Positions 276 to 35,253 of a stretch of 64,000 bases of DNA are shown piece by piece; the stretch's first letter is position 1; every line of letters starts with the position of its first letter. A program made the translations under genes and the position numbers. The stretch lies in assembly GCF_017654315.1 (NCBI RefSeq), contig NZ_CP072203.1, positions 3,782,001 to 3,846,000 of the forward strand. The letters are read 5' to 3'. The notes beneath the pieces were generated by a model, which was not told the origin of the DNA, ran no database searches, and saw only the letters and a list, made by a program, of their open reading frames with translations. This DNA comes from Gordonia polyisoprenivorans. GTDB taxonomy: Bacteria; Actinomycetota; Actinomycetes; Mycobacteriales; Mycobacteriaceae.

Positions 276-2504
276 GTGTCTGACGAGCAAGCCGCACCCC
301 CCATCGGGGAGGCCCAGACCCCAGCCGGAGAGCCGTCGGGCTCAGGATGCCCCATGCACATCCGCCCACCCGTGGAGGGCGGTGGCAACAACCAGTGGTG
401 GCCGGAGAAGCTGAATCTGCGTGTCCTGGCCCATAATCCCGATGTCATCCGCCCGCGCGGCGGCGACTTCGACTACGACGCCGCGCTCGCCGATCTCGAC
501 GTCGACGCACTCGTCGCCGACGTCAAGGCGGTCATGACCGACTCGAAGTCGTGGTGGCCCGCCGACTTCGGCCACTACGGACCGTTCTTCATCCGAATGT
601 CGTGGCACGCCGCGGGTACCTACCGCGTCGAGGACGGCCGCGGAGGTGCCGGCACCGGCATGCAGCGTTTCGCGCCGCTGGACAGCTGGCCGGACAACGT
701 CAGCCTCGACAAGGCACGCCGACTGTTGTGGCCGGTGAAGAAGAAGTACGGCAAGGCGCTGTCGTGGTCGGACCTGCTGGTCCTCGCCGGCAATGTCGCA
801 CTCGAGGACATGGGTTTCCACACCAAGGGATTCGCGTTCGGCCGCCCCGACGAGTGGGAAGCCGAGGAGGTGTACTGGGGTGCGGAGTCGACGTGGCTGG
901 GCACCAATCTGCGCTACTCCGGTGAGCGCAGCCTGGAGAAGCCGCTGGGTGCCACCACGATGGGTCTGATCTACGTCAATCCCGAAGGGCCCGAGGGCAA
1001 TCCCGACTATCTCGCTGCCGCCCAGGACATCCGGGAGACCTTCGGCCGGATGGCGATGAACGACGTGGAGACCGCCGCGCTCATCGTCGGCGGACACACC
1101 TTCGGCAAGACCCACGGCAACGGTGACGCCGAGAAACTCGGCCCCGAGCCCGAGGCCGCACCGCTGGAACAGATGGGGTTGGGCTGGAAGAACCCGCAGG
1201 GCACCGGCGTCGGCAACGACACCATCACCAGCGGTCTCGAGGTCACCTGGACCCACACCCCCACCAAGTGGGACAACTCGTTCCTGGAGATCCTCTACGG
1301 CAACGAATGGGAACTGACCAAGAGCCCGGCCGGCGCCAACCAGTGGAAGCCCAAGGACAACGGCTGGGCCAATTCGGTGCCGATGGCCCAGGGCGACGGC
1401 AAGACCCACCCGTCGATGCTGACCACCGACCTCACGATGCGGTTCGATCCGATCTATGGCGAGATCACCCGCCGCTGGCTCGATCATCCCGAAGAGCTGG
1501 CCGACGAGTTCGCCAAGGCCTGGTTCAAGCTGCTGCACCGCGACATGGGCCCGGCCATCCGCTACCGCGGTCCGCTGGCGCCCGCCGAGACCTACCTGTG
1601 GCAGGACAACGTTCCCGCACAGCAGGGTCCGACGATCTCCGACGCCGACGTCGATTCGTTGAAGTCGTCGATCCTCGAGTCCGGTCTGTCGGTGGCACAA
1701 CTGGTCTCGACCGCGTGGAAGGCCGCTGCGACGTTCCGCGGCAGTGACTTCCGCGGCGGTGCGAATGGCGGCCGGATCCGGTTGCAGCCCCAATTGGGTT
1801 GGGAATCCAGCGAACCGGACGAGCTGGCACAGGTCATCAGCACCCTGGAGGGGATCGCCGACGCCTTCAACAAGGAGTCCGGCCCGAAGGTGTCCTTCGC
1901 CGATCTCGTGGTGCTCGGCGGTGTCGTCGGTATCGAGAAGGCCGCCAAGGCTGCCGGGTTGTCGGTGTCGGTGCCGTTCACTCCCGGTCGTACCGACGCC
2001 TCGCAGGACGAGACCGATGTCGAGTCGTTCGCGTACCTGGAGCCGCGTTACGACGGCTTCCGTAACTACGAGGGCAAGGGCAACGAACTGCCCGCCGAGT
2101 ACAACCTGGTCGACAAGGCCAACCTGCTGACCCTCTCGGCACCGGAGATGACGGTGCTCGTCGGTGGTTTGCGTGTGCTCGGCGCCAACCACCAGGGTTC
2201 GTCTCTCGGTGTGCTCACCGAGACGCCCGGCACGCTGACCAACGATTTCTTCGTCAACATCTGTGACATGGACGTCGAGTGGGCGCCGTCGCCGGCCGAC
2301 GACGGCACCTACGTCGCGACCGATCGGGCGACCGGCGCGCAGAAGTGGACCGGCACGCGTGTGGATCTGGCCTTCGGGTCGAACTCGGATCTGCGGGCAT
2401 TGGCCGAGGTCTACGCCGAGGACACCTCGTCGGAGAAGTTCGTGGCCGACTTCGTCGCCGCGTGGACCAAGGTGATGGAACTCGACCGGTACGACCTGCA
2501 CTGA
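276..2504 (+). CDS. katG: Catalase-peroxidase KatG
   Basis: This bifunctional haem enzyme removes hydrogen peroxide (catalase) and oxidises small donors (peroxidase). It is 742 residues, the usual length for a KatG with an active N-terminal and a haem-free C-terminal domain. Distal-site residues are visible as IRMSWHAAG (Arg107, Trp110, His111). The proximal haem ligand is His274 in [11 protein letters not shown]. Tyr233 ([14 protein letters not shown]) and Met259 (FGRMAMND) complete the Met-Tyr-Trp adduct needed for catalase activity. The start is GTG at 276, chosen because GAAAGGA lies 5 bases upstream. It follows furA closely and is probably controlled by it. A strong hairpin follows the stop. 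In mycobacteria this enzyme also activates isoniazid. Confidence 0.97.
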
Positions 2505-2523
2505 CCTGACCGGTCATCGCACC

Positions 2524-2568
2524 CGATCGGGGGCATCGTCGCGCACGTCGCGTCGGTGCCCCCGATCG
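2524..2568. terminator. Bidirectional terminator between katG and the FBP gene
   Basis: A perfect 12-bp inverted repeat (cgatcgggggca at 2524-2535 and its complement at 2557-2568) with a 21-base loop lies between two convergent genes. There is no U tract, as is common for actinobacterial terminators. It probably serves both strands. Confidence 0.7.
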
Positions 2569-2619
2569 TCGTGTGACTCACCGATCGTCATGACTCACCG
2601 ATCGCCGTGTGTCACCGGA

Positions 2620-3144
2620 TCACCGGCTTCCGACTCGGGCGACGAACCGTGCGACCCGCTCGCGTAGCGCACCGATTCTCAGCTGCCGGACCCGCTCGGG
2701 ATCGTCACCGGCCATCGCCGACGACGGCTTGCGTCGCACATTCTCCGAGCATTCGAAGTTCGCACAGATGAGGGTTCCGACGGTGTCACCCTTACGACCC
2801 GCGCCACCCGCGCGCCGCGCGGCGAAGAGGATCACCTCATTGGGGAGCGAAATGTCTTCGCACAGTGCGCATTGCGGTCGGGTGCGGGCCGGGACGGAGC
2901 CGGCACGCAACATGATCCCGATCGGCTCGGCACCGCCGCCCGCCCCGGGGTCGTCGGCTGCGTCGGGCGCGGGGGCGAGAACGAGGTACCCGATGGCGGG
3001 TGACTTGGGATCGCGCCAACCGAGGTAATCGAGCCGGTCCCACCGGATCGTGTCGAATGCGTCGGGCATCGGGATCGCCTTGCGTTCGCGCACCGAGGTG
3101 TTGACGAACGATGCGCGGATTTCTGATTCGGTCATGGGTCGCAT
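2620..3144 (-). CDS. FBP (EF-G-binding, FusB-like) treble-clef zinc-finger protein
   Basis: This 174-residue protein matches the actinobacterial FBP-domain family, whose C-terminal treble-clef zinc finger resembles FusB-type elongation-factor-G-binding proteins. The putative zinc ligands are two Cys pairs, QCALC and CANFEC, about 40 residues apart. An N-terminal helical part (MTESEIRASFVNTS) precedes them. The start is ATG at 3144 because AGGAG lies 6 bases upstream; an in-frame GTG at 3168 lacks such a site. It is a single gene convergent with katG. By family it may bind EF-G or ribosomes, but whether it confers fusidic-acid tolerance is unknown. I would call it an FBP-domain protein of unproven function. 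Confidence 0.75.
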   Translation of the reverse strand: MRPMTESEIRASFVNTSVRERKAIPMPDAFDTIRWDRLDYLGWRDPKSPAIGYLVLAPAPDAADDPGAGGGAEPIGIMLRAGSVPARTRPQCALCEDISLPNEVILFAARRAGGAGRKGDTVGTLICANFECSENVRRKPSSAMAGDDPERVRQLRIGALRERVARFVARVGSR

Positions 3145-3482
3145 GGAGGACTCCTGGGAGTTGCGCACCGCGCGAGGGTGATCCGCCGTGCAGGCGCGGC
3201 GTCGACGGCCGGCCGCACGGGTGGTGACCTCGCACGGTGGTGAAGGGGACGCGGAGCGGGTGTCCGCGGATATGACTCATCGCGCGAACGCCACCATCGG
3301 GCGTTCGCGGCGCAGGCCTGCGGTCATCTGCGGCCGGCGCGGGCGCCGGCGACCTCCCGTCGATTCACCTGCGCCAGTGTCATCGTCCGGGACGCCCGGA
3401 GTCAACACGTTTCTCACCGACGGGCGTGTTGGTTCATGTCCCACCGCCGTGATGTGGGCGCTTCACGTGACACACTCGGCTC
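3145..3482. other. Divergent intergenic region with a spaced inverted repeat
   Basis: This 338-base gap separates the divergent FBP and methyltransferase genes. I see no credible coding frame. The only structure I can point to is an inverted repeat, caacacg (3403-3409) and cgtgttg (3425-3431), with centres 22 bases apart. That spacing would suit a dimeric regulator. It lies roughly 50-80 bases before the methyltransferase start. No clear -10 element is visible. Confidence 0.35.
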
Positions 3483-4076
3483 ATGACCCGATGGGATGGC
3501 ACGGCGGCGCCGCGTGGCGAGGATTACGACGATCGCTGGTCGTCGCTGGCCGCCGCGGGCGAGAACGTCCACGGCGAAGCCGACCTGGTCGCCGATCTCG
3601 CACGCGGGATCGGTGGTCGCCGCATACTCGACGCCGGGTGCGGCACGGGGCGGGTCGCCATCGAGCTGGCCCGCCGCGGTTTCGAGGTCGTCGGCGTCGA
3701 CGCGGACCCCTCGATGCTGGCGACCGCCCAGCGCAAGGCCGGCGACATCCGTTGGCTCCGAGCCGATCTGAGTTCACTCGACGCCCACCTCGACGAGCTC
3801 TTCGATCTCGTCGTCCTCGCCGGGAACGTGATGATCTTCCTCACGCCCGGCACCGAGGCCGGAGTGCTGCGCCAGTGCGCATCGAGGCTGCGGCCCGGCG
3901 GGCTGCTGGTCGCCGGATTCCAGCTCCGCCCCGACCGTCTTGCACTGTCCGACTACGACATCCACGCCCACGCCGCCGGCCTCGAACCGGGCGCGAGATT
4001 CGCCACCTGGGACCGCCGTCCGTTCGACGGCGGGGAGTACGCGGTGTCGGTGCACTCGCGCCCGGCCGACGCCTGA
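3483..4076 (+). CDS. Class I SAM-dependent methyltransferase
   Basis: This 197-residue Rossmann-fold methyltransferase has motif I at about residues 42-53 (RILDAGCGTGRVA). The acidic end of strand 2, VVGVDADPSML, holds the ribose of S-adenosylmethionine. Motif IV-like LVVLAGNVMIFL and a post-motif (RLRPGGLLVAGF) follow. The family (Methyltransf_25/11-like) does not reveal the substrate. The ATG at 3483 has no obvious ribosome-binding site. It is a single gene; the next operon begins 131 bases downstream. Function beyond SAM-dependent methyl transfer cannot be assigned from sequence alone. Confidence 0.85.
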   Translation: MTRWDGTAAPRGEDYDDRWSSLAAAGENVHGEADLVADLARGIGGRRILDAGCGTGRVAIELARRGFEVVGVDADPSMLATAQRKAGDIRWLRADLSSLDAHLDELFDLVVLAGNVMIFLTPGTEAGVLRQCASRLRPGGLLVAGFQLRPDRLALSDYDIHAHAAGLEPGARFATWDRRPFDGGEYAVSVHSRPADA

Positions 4077-4082
4077 GATCGG

Positions 4083-4110
4083 CGCCGGGGCCCGGCTCAC
4101 TCGCCCGGCG
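4083..4110 (+). terminator. Possible terminator after the methyltransferase gene
   Basis: A 7-bp inverted repeat (cgccggg at 4083-4089, cccggcg at 4104-4110) with a 14-base loop lies just after the methyltransferase stop. GC-rich stems of this length occur by chance here, so support is modest. Confidence 0.35.
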
Positions 4111-4128
4111 GCGGCCCTCGTCAGTGAC

Positions 4129-4134
4129 TATGCT
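4129..4134 (+). promoter_or_regulatory. Candidate -10 element of the URC operon
   Basis: TATGCT fits the mycobacterial TANNNT -10 pattern and would start transcription near 4141, leaving a leader of about 65 bases before the URC1-like gene. No convincing -35 element is visible. Confidence 0.35.
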
Positions 4135-4207
4135 GGCGGTTTCCCCGAGGGAGGCATCCGGGACACCGGTACCACCGAATCACCGGGGTAGGTGAAAGGA
4201 GTCGCCG

Positions 4208-5500
4208 ATGCCTGCCGCATCCGACAGTTCCGTACCCGCCGGTTCCCGGCCGTCCGCGGTCCGCACACCCGGGCACATCCGCCTCACCTCGCACAGCGGC
4301 GGAGCCGGTGCCCCGGACATCGCCTGGGGTGCGCCGACCGCCCGGGAACGAGGGCCGGTGATCGCGACCACCACCGACCGCGCCCACCGCAACGTGATCG
4401 GGACGCACTCGGGCTCCTACAGCGTCTATCGCGCGCTGGCCGTCGCCTCGGGCGCGTTGTCACGGGAGCATCGGGCCGACCTCACCAACACCTCCCCCAC
4501 CGACGTCGTCGGGCCACACCCGCAGTGGACCGACCGCAACGCCATCGTCAGCATCGATCCCTGGGGCGCACTCGTCGCCGAGTCGTTCCCCGAGCCGCTC
4601 GCCGCGGGATACGACATCCGTCCGACGATCGCGATCACCAAGGCCCATGTGATCCTGCCCGAGATCATCCATGCCATCGCGCAGGGCCGCCTGCAGCCCG
4701 ATGGTGAGGTGCTGCTGCCCACCGGCGCCGCACTGGTCACCAAGGCGGCCATCGAGCCCGTGTGGTGGTTACCCGGCATTGCCGACCGATTCGGCTGCAG
4801 CGACACCGAATTGCGCCGGGTGCTCTTCGAGGAGACCGGTGGCATGTACCCGGAGCTGGTGACGCGGCCGGATCTGGAGGTCTTCCTGCCGCCGATCGGT
4901 GGCCAGACCGTCTACATCTTCGGTGATCCGCAGGGCTTGTCCGATCCTGCCGTCGAACTGACCGCGCGGGTGCACGACGAGTGCAACGGCTCGGACGTGT
5001 TCGGCTCGGACATCTGCACTTGCCGCCCCTATCTCACCCACGCGATCGAGGAATGCATTCAGGGAGTCCAGCGCGGCGGGGTCGGTCTGGTCGCCTACTC
5101 CCGCAAGGAGGGGCGCGCCCTCGGCGAGGTCACCAAGTTCCTGGTCTACAACGCCCGCAAACGACAGGTCGGCGGCGACACCGCCGATCAGTACTTCGCG
5201 CGCACCGAATGCGTTGCCGGCGTTCAGGACATGCGCTTCCAGGAGCTCATGCCCGACGTCCTGCACTGGCTCGGTATCACCCGCATCGACCGGCTGGTCT
5301 CGATGAGCAACATGAAATACGACGCGATCACCGGCTCGGGCCTCGAGGTCGGCGAGCGCGTCGACATCCCACCCGAACTCATCCCGGAGGATGCGCGCGT
5401 GGAGATCGACGCCAAAACGGCCGCAGGCTATTTCACCAGCGGCGCGGTGCCGACCACCGATGACCTGCGTCAGGTGAAGGGCCGGGGGCTGCGCCGATGA
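4208..5500 (+). CDS. URC1-like protein (GTP cyclohydrolase II homologue)
   Basis: The C-terminal half (about residues 225-430) is a GTP cyclohydrolase II (RibA) fold. The zinc site is preserved as Cys259-x10-Cys270-x-Cys272, the same spacing as RibA. YSRKEGRALGEVTK around Arg299 corresponds to the RibA catalytic-loop region. The N-terminal ~220 residues are not the DHBP synthase found in RibBA fusions. That architecture, plus the next two genes, identifies it as URC1/Urg1 of the uracil-catabolism (URC) pathway rather than riboflavin synthesis. The ATG at 4208 follows GAAAGGAG. Its stop overlaps the next start (ATGA), so translation is coupled. Databases usually label such proteins simply GTP cyclohydrolase II. 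The exact reaction in the URC route is not something I can read here. Confidence 0.85.
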   Translation: MPAASDSSVPAGSRPSAVRTPGHIRLTSHSGGAGAPDIAWGAPTARERGPVIATTTDRAHRNVIGTHSGSYSVYRALAVASGALSREHRADLTNTSPTDVVGPHPQWTDRNAIVSIDPWGALVAESFPEPLAAGYDIRPTIAITKAHVILPEIIHAIAQGRLQPDGEVLLPTGAALVTKAAIEPVWWLPGIADRFGCSDTELRRVLFEETGGMYPELVTRPDLEVFLPPIGGQTVYIFGDPQGLSDPAVELTARVHDECNGSDVFGSDICTCRPYLTHAIEECIQGVQRGGVGLVAYSRKEGRALGEVTKFLVYNARKRQVGGDTADQYFARTECVAGVQDMRFQELMPDVLHWLGITRIDRLVSMSNMKYDAITGSGLEVGERVDIPPELIPEDARVEIDAKTAAGYFTSGAVPTTDDLRQVKGRGLRR

Positions 5501-6744
5501 CCGCACCCGGTGGTCGGTCCTCGACATCGTCGGTGGGCACCCTCGACGGGCCCGTGGCAGCTCTTCGGTCGACGGCCGAGATCCGGCGCCGCGCAGGTGA
5601 TCTGCTCACCTCCGCCCGCGCCGGCCGTTCTGCTCATTTCACGGTCGACGACTCCCGCATCGGCGCGGTGGTCGAGTTCGTGTCGGCGCTGACGCGCGAG
5701 CGCTACCCCGATCTCGACATCCCCTTCCACAGCCGGTGGCGCCACGTCGAGGCCGGCGGAATCGATCGACGCGTGGAGCTCGACGCGCGACTCGGCGACA
5801 TCGGTGCCGCCGAGCGCGCCCGCACCCACATCGATCTCGCCGTGGTGAGTGTCCTGCTCGACGCCGGGGCCGGCGCCGACTGGTACTTCGACGAGCCGGG
5901 CACCGGAGTGCGGTTCACCCGCTCCGAAGGTCTCGCGGTGGCGAGTGTTCACGCCTTCTTCGACGGCGTCTTCTCCGGCAGCCGCGACGAGCCCCTACGG
6001 GTCGATGCCGACGGTCTGCGTGCGCTGGATTCATCGCGCCTGGCAACGGCTTTCGGGGTCTCCGAGAACCGACCTCTCGTCGGTCTCGAGGGCCGCCTGC
6101 AGGTACTGAACCGGCTCGCCGATGCCATGGCGGCGCGTCCCGACGTGTTCGGCACCGGACGTCCGGGCGATCTGTTCGACCACCTCGGAGGCGGCACACG
6201 AGAGATCCGGGCACACGAGATCCTCACCGCACTGCTCGACACCCTCGCCCCGATCTGGCCCGCGGACAACCGGATCGACGGTATCGCCCTGGGCGACTGC
6301 TGGCGCCATCGCGGGGTCCGGGGCGCCGGCGCGACCGACGGGTGGATGCCGTTCCACAAGCTGTCGCAGTGGCTGACCTATTCGCTGCTCGAACCGTTCG
6401 CGTCGGCCGGGGTCGAGGTCGGCGGCCTCGAGGATCTGACGGCGTTGCCCGAATACCGCAACGGTGGCCTACTGCTCGACTCCGGCGTCCTGGCCACGGT
6501 GAATCCCGGTGCCGCACAAGCGGTATGGTCGGTCGGCGACGAGTTCGTCGTCGAGTGGCGCGCACTGACCGTCGCCCTGCTCGACGAACTCGCACCACTG
6601 GTGGCCACCGAACTCGGTGTCCCGGGGCTGCCCCTGGCGTGCGTTCTCGAAGGCGGGACCTGGGCCGCCGGGCGCCGATATGCGGCGCAACTGCGGGGTG
6701 GTCTGCCACCGTTGACCATCGACAGCGATGGCACGGTGTTCTGA
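5497..6744 (+). CDS. URC4/Urg3 family protein (DUF1688)
   Basis: This 415-residue protein is recognised as the DUF1688 family, named URC4 in the yeast Lachancea kluyveri and Urg3 in fission yeast. There it is required to use uracil as nitrogen source. Recognisable stretches include the [16 protein letters not shown] region near the N-terminus and [19 protein letters not shown] around residues 285-305. No well-known catalytic motif is visible. The length fits the family. It overlaps the upstream URC1-like gene by 4 bases and is followed 44 bases later by upp. The biochemical activity of the family is poorly defined, so I claim only a role in the URC pathway, inferred from family and context. 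Confidence 0.85.
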
Positions 6745-6788
6745 GCGGGCACCCGGACGTCCACCGACCACCGAAGAAGGGGCCACTG

Positions 6789-7418
6789 ATGAACGCCGTG
6801 CACGTCATCGATCATCCACTCGTGCAACACAAGCTGACGCTGATGCGACAGGCCGACACCTCCACCAACGATTTCCGCCGCCTGCTCAACGAGATCGCCA
6901 CCCTGATGGCCTACGACGTACTCGCCGACATCCCGATGCAGGAGATCACCATCAAGACGCCGATGGAGGTCACCACCGGCCGGGTGATCGACGGCAAGAA
7001 GCTGGTGTTCGCGTCGATCCTGCGTGGGGGCACCTCGATCGCCGACGGCATGCTCACGGTGGTGCCCGGTGCGCGGATCGGTCACATCGGGCTCTACCGC
7101 GACCCGAAAACCCATGTTGCCGTCGAGTATTACTTCAAGATGCCTCGCGAACTCGAGGAACGTGACGTCGTGATCGTCGACCCGCTTCTGGCCACCGGTC
7201 ACTCGGCGGTGGCCGCGGTGGACCGGATCAAGGAGTATCGGCCCCGTTCGATCCGGTTCGTCTGTCTACTGACCTGCCCCGAGGGTCTGGCCATGCTCCA
7301 CGGCGCCCACCCGGATGTGCCGGTGTTCACCGCATCGGTGGATCGCGAACTCGATGCCAACGGTTACATCCTGCCCGGTCTCGGTGACGCCGGCGACCGG
7401 ATCTACGGCACCGCCTGA
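6789..7418 (+). CDS. upp: Uracil phosphoribosyltransferase
   Basis: This 209-residue enzyme joins uracil to PRPP to make UMP. The PRPP-binding loop reads [13 protein letters not shown] at about residues 127-139. The uracil-binding C-terminal segment is [17 protein letters not shown]. The N-terminal [12 protein letters not shown] signature is intact. A much longer open frame runs upstream through the DUF1688 gene, but the ATG at 6789, with a purine-rich AAGAAGGGG upstream and the family length, is the real start. In the URC pathway the first step is UMP formation (Urg2/Urc6 in fungi), so this copy probably serves catabolism rather than only salvage. A second upp elsewhere in the genome would support that. 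Confidence 0.95.
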
Positions 7419-7445
7419 GCCGAACGAAAGTCAGAGAGCCGATCA

Positions 7446-8144
7446 ATGCCGACGGTACAGACCAGTTCCTCGTTACGATTCGCCTTCCTCGTCACCTGCG
7501 CGGGCGGATTCCTCGACAGCTACACCTACCTCGCGCGAGGTGGCGCCTTCGCCACCGCCCAAACCGGGAACGTGGTGTTCTTCGCCGTCGAGATCGCCCA
7601 GCGACACCCGATGCAGGCGCTTGCGCATGTGTGGCCGATCCTGGCATTCCTCGTCGGGATCGGTGCGGCGGTGCACATCCGCAAGGGCAGACTCGATCGC
7701 GTACTGCCCCACCCGATCCGGTTGACCGTCGCCCTGCAAGCGGCGATCCTCGCCATCGTCGGCTTCATCCCCTCGAGCGCCCCGCACTATACGGTGACGA
7801 TCCCGATAGCCTTCGTCGCCGCGATGCAGATCGAGATGTTCCGGAACGTCGCCGGGCACAACTACGTCGCCATCGCCACCACCGGGAACCTGATGCGTCT
7901 GGTCGAGGCAGCACACGGCGTGGCGGTGGATCGCGACCCGGAATCGCGGCGGCCACTGGCAATCTATCTCGGGGTGGTCGGGATCTTCGCCGGCGGCGCT
8001 CTGATCGGCGCACTGACCACACACCTCATCGGGGTCCACGCAGCCTGGATACCTGCGGCATTCCTGGGAGTCACCCTCGCCCTGTTCATCTGGGACGAGC
8101 GGGACACCCCCGGCGCCGCCGAGACCGACGAACCAGCGCCGTAG
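7446..8144 (+). CDS. DUF1275 (YoaK-like) integral membrane protein
   Basis: This 232-residue hydrophobic protein has about six membrane segments, for example LAHVWPILAFLVGIGAAVHI, VALQAAILAIVGFI, AIYLGVVGIFAGGALIGAL and AAFLGVTLALFIW. The DUF1275 hallmarks AGGFLDSYTYL and TGNVVFFAVEI lie near the N-terminus, and a second internal TGN (ATTGNLMRL) lies in the middle. The family is widespread and uncharacterised, with transport often suspected. The gene starts 27 bases after upp and ends the operon, so it may move uracil, a URC intermediate or the three-carbon end product. That link is inference from position only. Confidence 0.8.
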   Translation: MPTVQTSSSLRFAFLVTCAGGFLDSYTYLARGGAFATAQTGNVVFFAVEIAQRHPMQALAHVWPILAFLVGIGAAVHIRKGRLDRVLPHPIRLTVALQAAILAIVGFIPSSAPHYTVTIPIAFVAAMQIEMFRNVAGHNYVAIATTGNLMRLVEAAHGVAVDRDPESRRPLAIYLGVVGIFAGGALIGALTTHLIGVHAAWIPAAFLGVTLALFIWDERDTPGAAETDEPAP

Positions 8145-8147
8145 CGC

Positions 8148-8741
8148 TCAGGTCAGGTCGCCGGTGAGATAGTGGGTGATGACCGGACCGACCTGCGCCA
8201 CGAGCTCGTCGCGATCGGCTGCCACGATCTCGGGCTGTCGGATCACGAAGCGCAGCATGAGAAGTCCGAACATCTGGGAGGCGATCAGCGCCAGTCGCCG
8301 CTCTCGGCGGTCGGCGCGGACCGCACTGCCGAGCGCGACCTCCACGATTGCTCCCGGGACATCCTGCGCCGGGCCGGCGGCAGGGTTGGTCGAAGCGATG
8401 AGGCGCAGTACGCCGGGAATGTGCGATTGCAACTCCGGTGATTCCCACGCTGCGATGGCTCGTCGCACGAACTCCGGGCCGGCACGCTCGTCGGTCGGCA
8501 TGTCGGCGAACACCAGCGAGAGGTCGACGGGCGGTCGTAGTGCCTCGGCCACCAGATTCTTCTTCGGCCCGAAGTAGTGATGGACCAACGCCGGGTCGAC
8601 ACCGGCACGACCGGCCACGGCACGCACCGTGGTCCGGTCGAACCCGTTGTCCGCCAATAGTTCCCGGGTCGCCGCCAGGATCTTCTCGCGAGTGTCGCGC
8701 GACTGTCCCGCCGGCGGTCTCCCCCGCGTCCGCCCGGTCAT
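8148..8741 (-). CDS. TetR-family regulator of the adjacent ABC exporter
   Basis: This 197-residue protein has an N-terminal TetR helix-turn-helix at about residues 18-60 (TREKILAATRELLADNGF ... VHHYFGPKKNLVAEAL). The C-terminal ligand domain is variable. The start overlaps the stop of the upstream ATPase gene (ATGA), so it is the last gene of a permease-ATPase-ATPase-tetR operon. Autoregulation is likely: a near-perfect palindrome lies upstream of the first gene at 11544-11557. The ligand is unknown; TetR regulators paired with exporters usually sense the exported toxic compound. It converges with the DUF1275 gene, with only 3 bases between stops. Confidence 0.9.
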   Translation of the reverse strand: MTGRTRGRPPAGQSRDTREKILAATRELLADNGFDRTTVRAVAGRAGVDPALVHHYFGPKKNLVAEALRPPVDLSLVFADMPTDERAGPEFVRRAIAAWESPELQSHIPGVLRLIASTNPAAGPAQDVPGAIVEVALGSAVRADRRERRLALIASQMFGLLMLRFVIRQPEIVAADRDELVAQVGPVITHYLTGDLT

Positions 8742-9637
8742 CGCAAATCCGGGGTTCGCGCGAGAACCAGCATCCGCTCCTCGATGGTCGCCGGGACCGT
8801 GGTGACCTCGCCGGAGATGTCGGCATGCTCGAGAATGCCGCGCACCCGCGCCGGATCGGTGTCGGCCACCCGAATGGTCCGGCCGGCGAGGATGACCGGA
8901 ACGCCCTTGCCCTGCAGCGCCGCGAAGGCGCTGCGCCAGTCCGGCGTGTCGACGAGCGCAGCACGCGTGTCACCGACGACGTCGTCCTCGCTGCCCTGCG
9001 CGACCAGCCGACCCGCCGACATCAGCAGCAACCGGTCGCACTCCTGCGCCTCCTCCATATAGTGCGTGGTCACGAGCACCCCCACCCCGGAATCCGCCTG
9101 CGCGCGAATCGTGTCCCAGAGCTCCGCCCGGGACAACGCATCCACCCCCGAGGTCGGCTCGTCGAGGACGAGGACGTCGGGATGATGGGCGAGCGCGACC
9201 GCGAAGGCGACCTTGCGCTGGGTGCCGAGCGGCAGATTCCCGACGAGGGTGTCGGCGTAGCCCGCGAGATCGGCGGGGACCGTCGCATCACCGTGATAGG
9301 CATCCGCGCTGAACGTCATGTTCTCGCGCACGGTCAGATCGCGGTACAGGCCCAGATTCTGGGGCACGTAGCCGAGCCGCGCCCGCCGGCGCTGGTCTGG
9401 TGGGCCGTCGAACAGCGAGGTCTGCCCGTCGGTGGGGGCGAGCAATCCCAACAGCATCCGGATGAGGGTCGTCTTACCGGCACCGTTGGCACCGAGGAGT
9501 CCGACGACCTCACCGGAATCCACCGACATCGTGACCTCGGACACGGCGACGAAATCACCGAATCGTCGGGTCACCGAATGGCTGCCGAGTAGCGATCCGG
9601 TGGCCTCGGGCATGGTCCCCCGGTGCTCCGCGCTCAT
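8738..9637 (-). CDS. ABC transporter ATPase (second of two)
   Basis: This 299-residue nucleotide-binding protein has Walker A LGANGAGKTTL, Q-loop region PQNLGLYRDLTV, and Walker B VLVLDEPTSGVD. The H-loop is seen in VLVTTHYMEEAQ. The signature is degenerate: NLPLGTQRKVAFA replaces the usual LSGGQ, with LPLGTQ at the position. The C-terminal ~70 residues resemble the regulatory extension of ABC-2 exporters. The ATG at 9637 overlaps the stop of the preceding ATPase gene. With the next gene it resembles the two halves of E. coli YbhF, which is a fused double ATPase. It energises the single ABC-2 permease of the operon. Confidence 0.92.
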   Translation of the reverse strand: MSAEHRGTMPEATGSLLGSHSVTRRFGDFVAVSEVTMSVDSGEVVGLLGANGAGKTTLIRMLLGLLAPTDGQTSLFDGPPDQRRRARLGYVPQNLGLYRDLTVRENMTFSADAYHGDATVPADLAGYADTLVGNLPLGTQRKVAFAVALAHHPDVLVLDEPTSGVDALSRAELWDTIRAQADSGVGVLVTTHYMEEAQECDRLLLMSAGRLVAQGSEDDVVGDTRAALVDTPDWRSAFAALQGKGVPVILAGRTIRVADTDPARVRGILEHADISGEVTTVPATIEERMLVLARTPDLR

Positions 9638-33534: not shown

Positions 33535-35253
33535 TCAGAACAGGAAATACCGTTGGGCCATCGGCAGTTCGGGCACCGGCTCGGCATCCCACACCGCACC
33601 GTCGATGCGCACGGTGAAGGTATCGGGGTCGACCTCGATGGTCGGCATCGCGGCATTGCGCGGCATGTCGGCCTTGCCGAGGGCGCGGGTGTTCTTCACC
33701 GGCACCAGCCTGCGGCGGATGCCGATGCGATCGGCCAGGTCGGCGTCACAACCCGGCGCGACGAAACTCAGCGAGGTGTCGGCGGCGGTGGGCGCCGCGG
33801 CGCCGAACATGGGTCGGGGCAGGACCGGTTGGGGGGTCGGGATGGAGGCGTTGGCGTCTCCCATCTGCGCCCAGGCGATCGCGCCGCCCTTGATCACCAG
33901 ATCCGGCTTCACACCGAAGAACGCCGGATCCCACAGCACGAGATCGGCGAGCTTGCCGACCTCGACCGAGCCGATCTCGTCGTCGAAACCGTGCGCGACC
34001 GCAGGGCAGATCGTGTACTTGGCGATGTAGCGCTGCGCACGGTTGTTGTCGGCGCGGCTGTCGCCCTCGAGCGCACCACGTTTGCGCTTCATCACGTGCG
34101 CGGTCTGCCAGGTGCGCAACACGACCTCACCGATACGCCCCATCGCCTGCGCGTCCGACCCGATCATCGAGATCGCGCCGAGGTCGTGCAGCAGGTCTTC
34201 GGCAGCGATGGTCGACGGCCGGATACGGCTCTCGGCGAACGCGAGATCCTCGGGCACGGTGGGATTGAGGTGATGGCAGACCATCAGCATGTCGAGGTGT
34301 TCGTCGAGGGTGTTGACGGTGTGCGGACGGGTCGGGTTGGTGGAGCTCGGCAACACATTGGGCGCCGCGGCGACGGTGATGATGTCGGGTGCGTGCCCAC
34401 CGCCTGCACCCTCGGTGTGATAGGCGTGGATGCTGCGACCGGCGATGGCACCCAGCGTCGATTCGACGAAACCGGCCTCGTTGAGGGTGTCGGAGTGCAG
34501 TGCCACCTGCACCCCGGTCTCGTCGGCCACCCGCAGGCAGGCGTCGATCGCCGCCGGTGTACTCCCCCAGTCCTCGTGGAGCTTGAATCCCGATGCGCCG
34601 GCCCGGATCTGCTCGCGCATGGCCTCGGCACTGACGGTGTTGCCCTTGCCCAAAAGAGCGATGTTCATGGGCCAGTGGTCGGTGGCGGCGAGTATCGATG
34701 CCAGATGCCACGCCCCGGGCGTGACGGTGGTGGCCTTGGAACCCTCCGCGGGGCCGGTGCCCCCGCCGATCAGCGTGGTGATGCCGTTGCCGAGCGCCTC
34801 GTCCATGATCTGCGGGCAGATGAAGTGCACGTGGCAGTCGATACCGCCCGCCGTCAGGATCTTGCCGTTGCCCGCGATGATCTCCGTCGACGCCCCGATC
34901 ACCAGGTCGGGGTGCACGCCATCCATCGTGTCGGGGTTTCCGGCCTTGCCCATGGCGACGATGCGGCCGTCGCGGATTCCGATGTCGGCCTTGATGATTC
35001 CCCAGTGGTCAAGCACGACGACGCCGGTGATGACGGTGTCGGGCGCGCCGTCGGCGCGGGTGGCACGACTCTGCCCCATCGATTCCCGAATGACCTTGCC
35101 GCCACCGAACACCGCTTCGTCGCCGGCCAGACCCGGTCCGCCGCAACGGTCCTCGGTGACCTCGATGAGCAGGTCGGTATCGGCCAGACGGATCAGATCA
35201 CCGGTGGTGGGGCCGAACAGTTGCGCGTAGCGGTCGCGTCCGAGGATCGCCAT
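33535..35253 (-). CDS. ureC: Urease catalytic subunit alpha UreC
   Basis: This 572-residue nickel enzyme hydrolyses urea to ammonia and carbamate. All key residues are present: nickel ligands His141 and His143 ([10 protein letters not shown]), carbamylated Lys224 ([10 protein letters not shown]), His253 ([10 protein letters not shown]), His279 ([12 protein letters not shown]) and the flap Cys326 ([21 protein letters not shown]). ATG at 35253 is chosen since the ureB stop is one base away and family homology starts at [16 protein letters not shown]. It assembles with UreA and UreB as a trimer of trimers. Confidence 0.98.

Follow-up and report, generated by a model that had tools for sequence, protein, structure and literature searches.

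The 64,000-nucleotide segment of the Gordonia polyisoprenivorans genome analysed here (the window; genome positions 3782001-3846000, the genome being one contig of 6,033,879 bases) carries four open reading frames of the same strand, all starting with ATG, which code for URC1, URC4 (DUF1688), uracil phosphoribosyltransferase (UPRT) and a DUF1275 membrane protein (window 4208-8144, Table 1). Sequence comparisons indicate that this locus is probably (with a probability of roughly 0.72) a URC uracil-catabolic operon, in which uracil would be degraded by UPRT, URC1, N-glycosidic cleavage by URC4 and, finally, urease. With slightly less assurance, we favour the view that the Qng1 family has a second branch, catabolic in role, which is represented by URC4/DUF1688. 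In this branch the active-site Asp of Qng1 would be replaced by an invariant Glu, and the enzyme, which would have the fold of the DNA glycosylases, would cut urea off phosphoribosylurea; the nitrogen of uracil would be freed as urea and ribose 5-phosphate would be recovered, presumably in bacteria and fungi alike.

The URC1 and URC4 genes overlap in an ATGA at 5497-5500. Intergenic gaps of 44 nt and 27 nt separate URC4 from UPRT and UPRT from the DUF1275 gene, respectively. Open reading frames, families and overlap agree with the four-gene array with ATGA coupling of URC1 and URC4 proposed in an earlier, sequence-only reading of this DNA. URC4 matched PF07958 (467.6 bits, E 4.3e-140), a family whose Pfam entry, in the copy searched, still reads 'Protein of unknown function'. 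UPRT matched PF14681 (E 1.3e-71) and TIGR01091 (245.5 bits, E 4e-73, cut-off 208.35), and the DUF1275 protein matched PF06912 (E 1.4e-42). Among the best 120 of 7998 matches, the closest relatives of URC4 were Gordonia proteins (98% identity in Gordonia sp. L191, 91% in G. polyisoprenivorans). In the source databases, proteins of this kind already go by the name 'URC4/urg3 family protein'.

A search of species genomes yielded at least 591 stretches, 569 of which encode a URC4 relative; the best 80 loci, a set biased to near kin, were kept. URC1 was located directly upstream of URC4 on the same strand in all 80, and UPRT followed URC4 in 76. In the other four loci (L022, L035, L039, L081) the contig ends 50-270 nt past URC4. 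Such regularity goes beyond chance. The same arrangement, URC4 flanked by URC1 and UPRT, was found in 21/21 loci of a second genome set (flanks of about 1.5 kb). URC4 was present in 27 of the 201 family genomes and URC1 scored over its cut-off in 27; the corresponding numbers for the 296 phylum genomes were four and four. Comparison of the genome lists established that in both cases these were the same genomes. The distribution of the operon is thus patchy, and URC1 and URC4 go together. The earlier reading had placed DUF1275 in the operon; a DUF1275 gene was found near URC4 in two of the 80 loci, both from Gordonia, and in none of the 21 further loci, and it was rejected as a member of the pathway.

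Two loci from distant actinobacterial genomes (L083 and L084) differ in detail. Their UPRT, encoded beside URC4 at about 2720-3300, is 30-32% identical to the window UPRT and perhaps belongs to a different UPRT type. In L083 (G258:C101:32448-33661, a draft genome) the URC1 match is split into two pieces in different frames: either the gene is broken or the sequence contains an error.

URC1 belongs to family NF005536/PRK07198 (781 bits, E 2e-235, cut-off 403). PF12471 ('GTP cyclohydrolase N terminal') covers residues 23-209 (E 1.2e-77) and PF00925 residues 238-385 (E 1.6e-15), and residues 20-428 align with the solved proteins 7eev and 7ej3 (776 bits), whose name in the PDB is 'GTP cyclohydrolase II'. 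We take these to be the structures of a UTP cyclohydrolase paper published in ACS Catal in 2021. Since PF12471 and the 7eev alignment cover the N-terminus, the N-terminal ~220 residues, held earlier to be an unexplained domain, correspond to a described domain within a solved relative. Cys259, Cys270, Cys272, Asp341 and Arg343 were invariant in 19/19 aligned relatives. The three cysteines, presumably the zinc-binding triad, line up with Cys residues of RibBA 4i14, and Asp341 and Arg343 with its Asp-Ala-Arg, residues that in GTP cyclohydrolase II go with pyrophosphate release. The chemistry of URC1 is less obscure than the earlier description of it as largely undefined suggested: besides the solved relatives there are the 2021 paper, cited for the URC pathway in PMC12507026, and a theoretical paper of 2022, cited in PMC9499338.

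Structure and profile comparisons link URC4 to Qng1 (PF10343, Q_salvage) and assign it the Qng1 fold. Profile-profile comparison (hhalign) of URC4 with Q_salvage gave 96.1% (E 2.8e-9, 277 columns), and URC1, used as control, gave 0.0% with URC4 and 0.2% with Q_salvage. At the level of single sequences, the DUF1688 relative P0174 scored 25.4 bits against PF10343 (E 1.3e-5); it was the sole protein over the Pfam cut-off of 25, by 0.4 bits. At E <= 10, six of the nine proteins in this comparison matched PF10343. P0174 was also the one protein with a precomputed PF10343 match among the best 120 of 7997 matches, and eight of 120 listed Q_salvage proteins had a precomputed DUF1688 match. Two sets of sequences, 87 URC4 and 35 Q_salvage rows, were hand-picked from the match lists and loci. 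PF10343 matched 27 of the 87 URC4 rows at E <= 10, mostly weakly. DUF1688 matched 24 of the 35 Q_salvage rows at the same threshold (best 2.3e-6), the latter set being enriched for such proteins as it takes in all eight with a precomputed match.

The titles of PDB entries name the Qng1 mutants K199C and D231N, and the changed residues sit in the motifs YKRAQ and LTAFADY. Hhalign places Lys199 and Asp231 on Lys288 (FHKLSQ) and Glu319 (LTALPEY) of URC4. Lys288, Gln291, Glu319, Tyr320 and Arg355 were invariant in 87/87 URC4 sequences. At the matching positions Lys, Gln, Asp and Arg were present in all 35 Q_salvage proteins and Tyr in 31. Judged by the Lys, Gln, acidic and Arg positions in the two sets, the site is retained in URC4, Asp being replaced by Glu throughout. 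Helix-hairpin-helix DNA glycosylases, too, typically have a Lys/Asp pair. URC4 is about 20% identical to Qng1, from which it further differs in being some 80-90 residues longer and in being tied genomically to URC1. The main substrate of Qng1 is queuosine-5'-monophosphate, according to passages of PMC11592518 and PMC12301720.

In the proposed route UPRT would convert uracil to UMP, and general kinases would convert UMP to UTP. URC1, as a zinc GTP-cyclohydrolase-II homologue, would open the pyrimidine ring; a three-carbon piece would leave and N-ribosylurea would stay, probably as the 5'-phosphate. URC4 would then hydrolyse the N-glycosidic bond of (phospho)ribosylurea, like Qng1 and the helix-hairpin-helix DNA glycosylases, to give urea and ribose (5-phosphate), and urease would release ammonia from the urea, by which the operon may serve nitrogen supply in Gordonia. 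If Asp341 and Arg343 mean pyrophosphate release in URC1, URC4 would receive a 5'-monophosphate, matching the Qng1 substrate. The fold of a nucleotide N-glycohydrolase fits cleavage between ribose and urea, and yeast urc4 mutants are said to accumulate ribosylurea. Passages of a paper on a yeast model take URC4 as degrading ribosylurea to urea, then used by URC3 and URC5 (PMC7530994), whereas the Gordonia window contains a urease alpha subunit gene; the urea carboxylase model TIGR02712 remained under its cut-off in the genome. According to a passage of PMC3869809, the breakdown of uracil by Urc1 and Urc4, together with further enzymes, leads to urea and 3-hydroxypropionic acid.

The three gene families are common to the fungal URC systems (URC1 and URC4 of Lachancea kluyveri; urg1, urg3 and the UPRT gene urg2 of Schizosaccharomyces pombe). 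In S. pombe the genes for the GTP-cyclohydrolase-II homologue, the DUF1688 protein and UPRT are clustered and uracil-induced (passages of PMC2174524). The Gordonia genes differ in forming a bacterial operon with translational overlap and in the extra DUF1275 gene. URC shares its starting compound with the Rut, reductive and oxidative pathways; those act on free uracil, whereas URC proceeds via the nucleotide. In the Gordonia genome the best RutA match reached 127.8 bits (cut-off 498.3). The best match to NF006183 (PRK08318), which we take to be PreA-type dihydropyrimidine dehydrogenase, reached 34.1 bits (cut-off 335); this search covered that dehydrogenase type only. A second UPRT gene at genome position 2680977 encodes a protein 34% identical to the operon copy, a divergence which suggests that the operon UPRT serves catabolism and the other copy housekeeping. 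The assignment as a URC-type uracil operon made in the sequence-only reading is well supported by the families, the synteny, the co-occurrence of URC1 and URC4, the second UPRT and the urease alpha gene; its statements on URC1 chemistry, the URC1 N-terminus and DUF1275 membership had to be given up.

Several observations weigh against the URC operon as outlined, or against the kinship of URC4 with Qng1. The operon itself has no gene for a uracil transporter, unless DUF1275 is one. The genome encodes a dihydropyrimidinase (genome 1512983; 547.9 bits, cut-off 393.25), whose neighbours (L126:5523-14782, genome 1510522-1519781) include an F420-dependent oxidoreductase, a MocR-like regulator and an NCS1 permease. 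This locus may constitute a second pyrimidine or hydantoin route, and URC is perhaps not the sole one. The window URC4 had no match to PF10343 at E <= 10, like 60 of the 87 URC4 rows, and Qng1 was missed when PDB sequences were searched, whether the query was the URC4 profile or P0174. The acidic residue is Glu in every URC4 (87/87) and Asp in every Q_salvage protein (35/35), and likeness of fold alone does not establish that URC4 and Qng1 catalyse the same reaction.

A different reaction of URC4 within the same operon has to be considered. As a ureido-amidohydrolase URC4 would convert ribosylurea to ribosylamine, CO2 and ammonia and leave the N-glycosidic bond uncut. Nitrogen would be yielded in this way too, and no demonstration of URC4 activity was found in the open-licence literature; but the fold of URC4 and its profile kinship with an N-glycohydrolase argue against such a reaction, as does the yeast model, which has URC4 yield the urea consumed by URC3 and URC5 (passage of PMC7530994). 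We regard it as unlikely. The relation to Qng1 could also be taken to mean that URC4 is a divergent queuosine-salvage hydrolase, its proximity to URC1 reflecting another nucleotide-related role. This is very improbable in view of the identical genome sets of URC1 and URC4, the occurrence in one genome (G258) of a Q_salvage gene distinct from its DUF1688 gene, and the replacement of Asp by Glu together with the motif EYRNGG, invariant in 87/87 URC4. PF10343 had no match in the Gordonia genome, which by itself is neutral on this point.

Finally, riboflavin or a deazapurine, not uracil, might be what the operon serves, with URC1 as a GTP cyclohydrolase II. The retained GTP cyclohydrolase II domain with its three Cys and the PDB name of 7eev and 7ej3 are compatible with this; the PF12471 N-terminus, the separate family NF005536 and the constant company of UPRT and URC4 speak against it, and the induction by uracil of urg1 and urg3, the relatives in S. 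pombe, and of a UPRT gene there (passages of PMC2174524) also points away from it. Because genome position 3428122 holds a further gene encoding a GTP cyclohydrolase II domain, expression tied to riboflavin is unlikely, and we give this explanation hardly any weight. The URC operon with N-glycosidic cleavage by URC4 remains the preferred reading. No link between DUF1688 and Qng1 and no reaction mechanism of URC4 was found in the open-licence literature; the 2021 ACS Catal paper, outside that scope, may treat URC4. In that literature, passages on nitrogen-limited M. smegmatis concern a reductive pathway (PMC4617892), and in the passages of PMC4897934 DUF1688 figures only as a chance mutation.

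A maximum-likelihood tree of 87 rows was built from URC4 alone. The window URC4 fell into a set of 18 rows (support 99/96) in which all rows of known origin were from Actinomycetota. This set was nested in one of 32 rows (100/100); outside the 18, the rows whose origin is known came from Comamonadaceae or other Proteobacteria. The observation concerns the window gene (5497-6744) and the loci L009, L036, L038, L043, L060, L075 and L079. The nesting of the actinobacterial sequences, based on this one gene, suggests that Mycobacteriales acquired the operon horizontally, from a Burkholderiales-like donor.

Genes for an ABC transporter of BMP/PnrA-like type and for a protein of the phosphorylase superfamily often lie behind the URC operon of Comamonadaceae (L077:8561-9559, L057:5672-7732, L019:14380-16044, L080:10866-12059). 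Downstream of the 43 proteobacterial loci, a BMP/PnrA-like substrate-binding protein was encoded in 20, an ABC ATPase in 21, permeases in 21 and 19, and a phosphorylase-superfamily protein in 11; 7 kb of downstream sequence was present in 33 of the 43 loci, so that in some loci these genes could not appear. No such transporter or phosphorylase clusters were found downstream among the 37 actinobacterial loci. The Pfam names of neighbour clusters derive from one representative each, and 9/20 representatives, which had no Pfam match, are probably not real genes. The transporter and phosphorylase genes fit nucleoside use and may serve nucleoside import.

Around the Gordonia operon, a scan of 3900-8400 detected no sigma-70-like promoters (shuffles 0.5) and two terminator-like sites, both on the other strand (shuffles 1.1). 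Rfam searches of 2400-9000 at gathering cut-offs gave no match. A methyltransferase-domain gene (3483-4076) on the same strand ends 131 nt before URC1. The TetR gene at 8148-8741 was set aside as operon regulator: it lies on the opposite strand, and a relative scoring at least 80 bits was found near URC4 in one of 80 loci (L021).

Table 1. Genes of the putative URC operon and the urease gene in the window
Feature	Position	Strand	Remarks
URC1, GTP-cyclohydrolase-II homologue, probable UTP cyclohydrolase	4208..5500	+	430 aa; NF005536, PF12471 + PF00925, 7eev
URC4 / DUF1688, predicted (phospho)ribosylurea N-glycohydrolase	5497..6744	+	415 aa; PF07958
upp, operon UPRT	6789..7418	+	209 aa; PF14681, TIGR01091
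DUF1275 membrane-protein family gene, local addition	7446..8144	+	232 aa; PF06912
Urease alpha subunit gene, at a locus of its own; the enzyme could use the urea	33538..35241 (genome 3815538-3817241)	-	TIGR01792 904.2 bits, cut-off 680

The operon is a further copy of an already described system, and its possible significance lies in the URC4 step, for which the link to Qng1 offers a concrete reaction, a likely 5'-phosphate substrate and the residues Lys288 and Glu319. If true, this would fill in the missing chemistry of the URC pathway, and the fold of the DNA glycosylases and queuine-salvage enzymes would gain a catabolic member.

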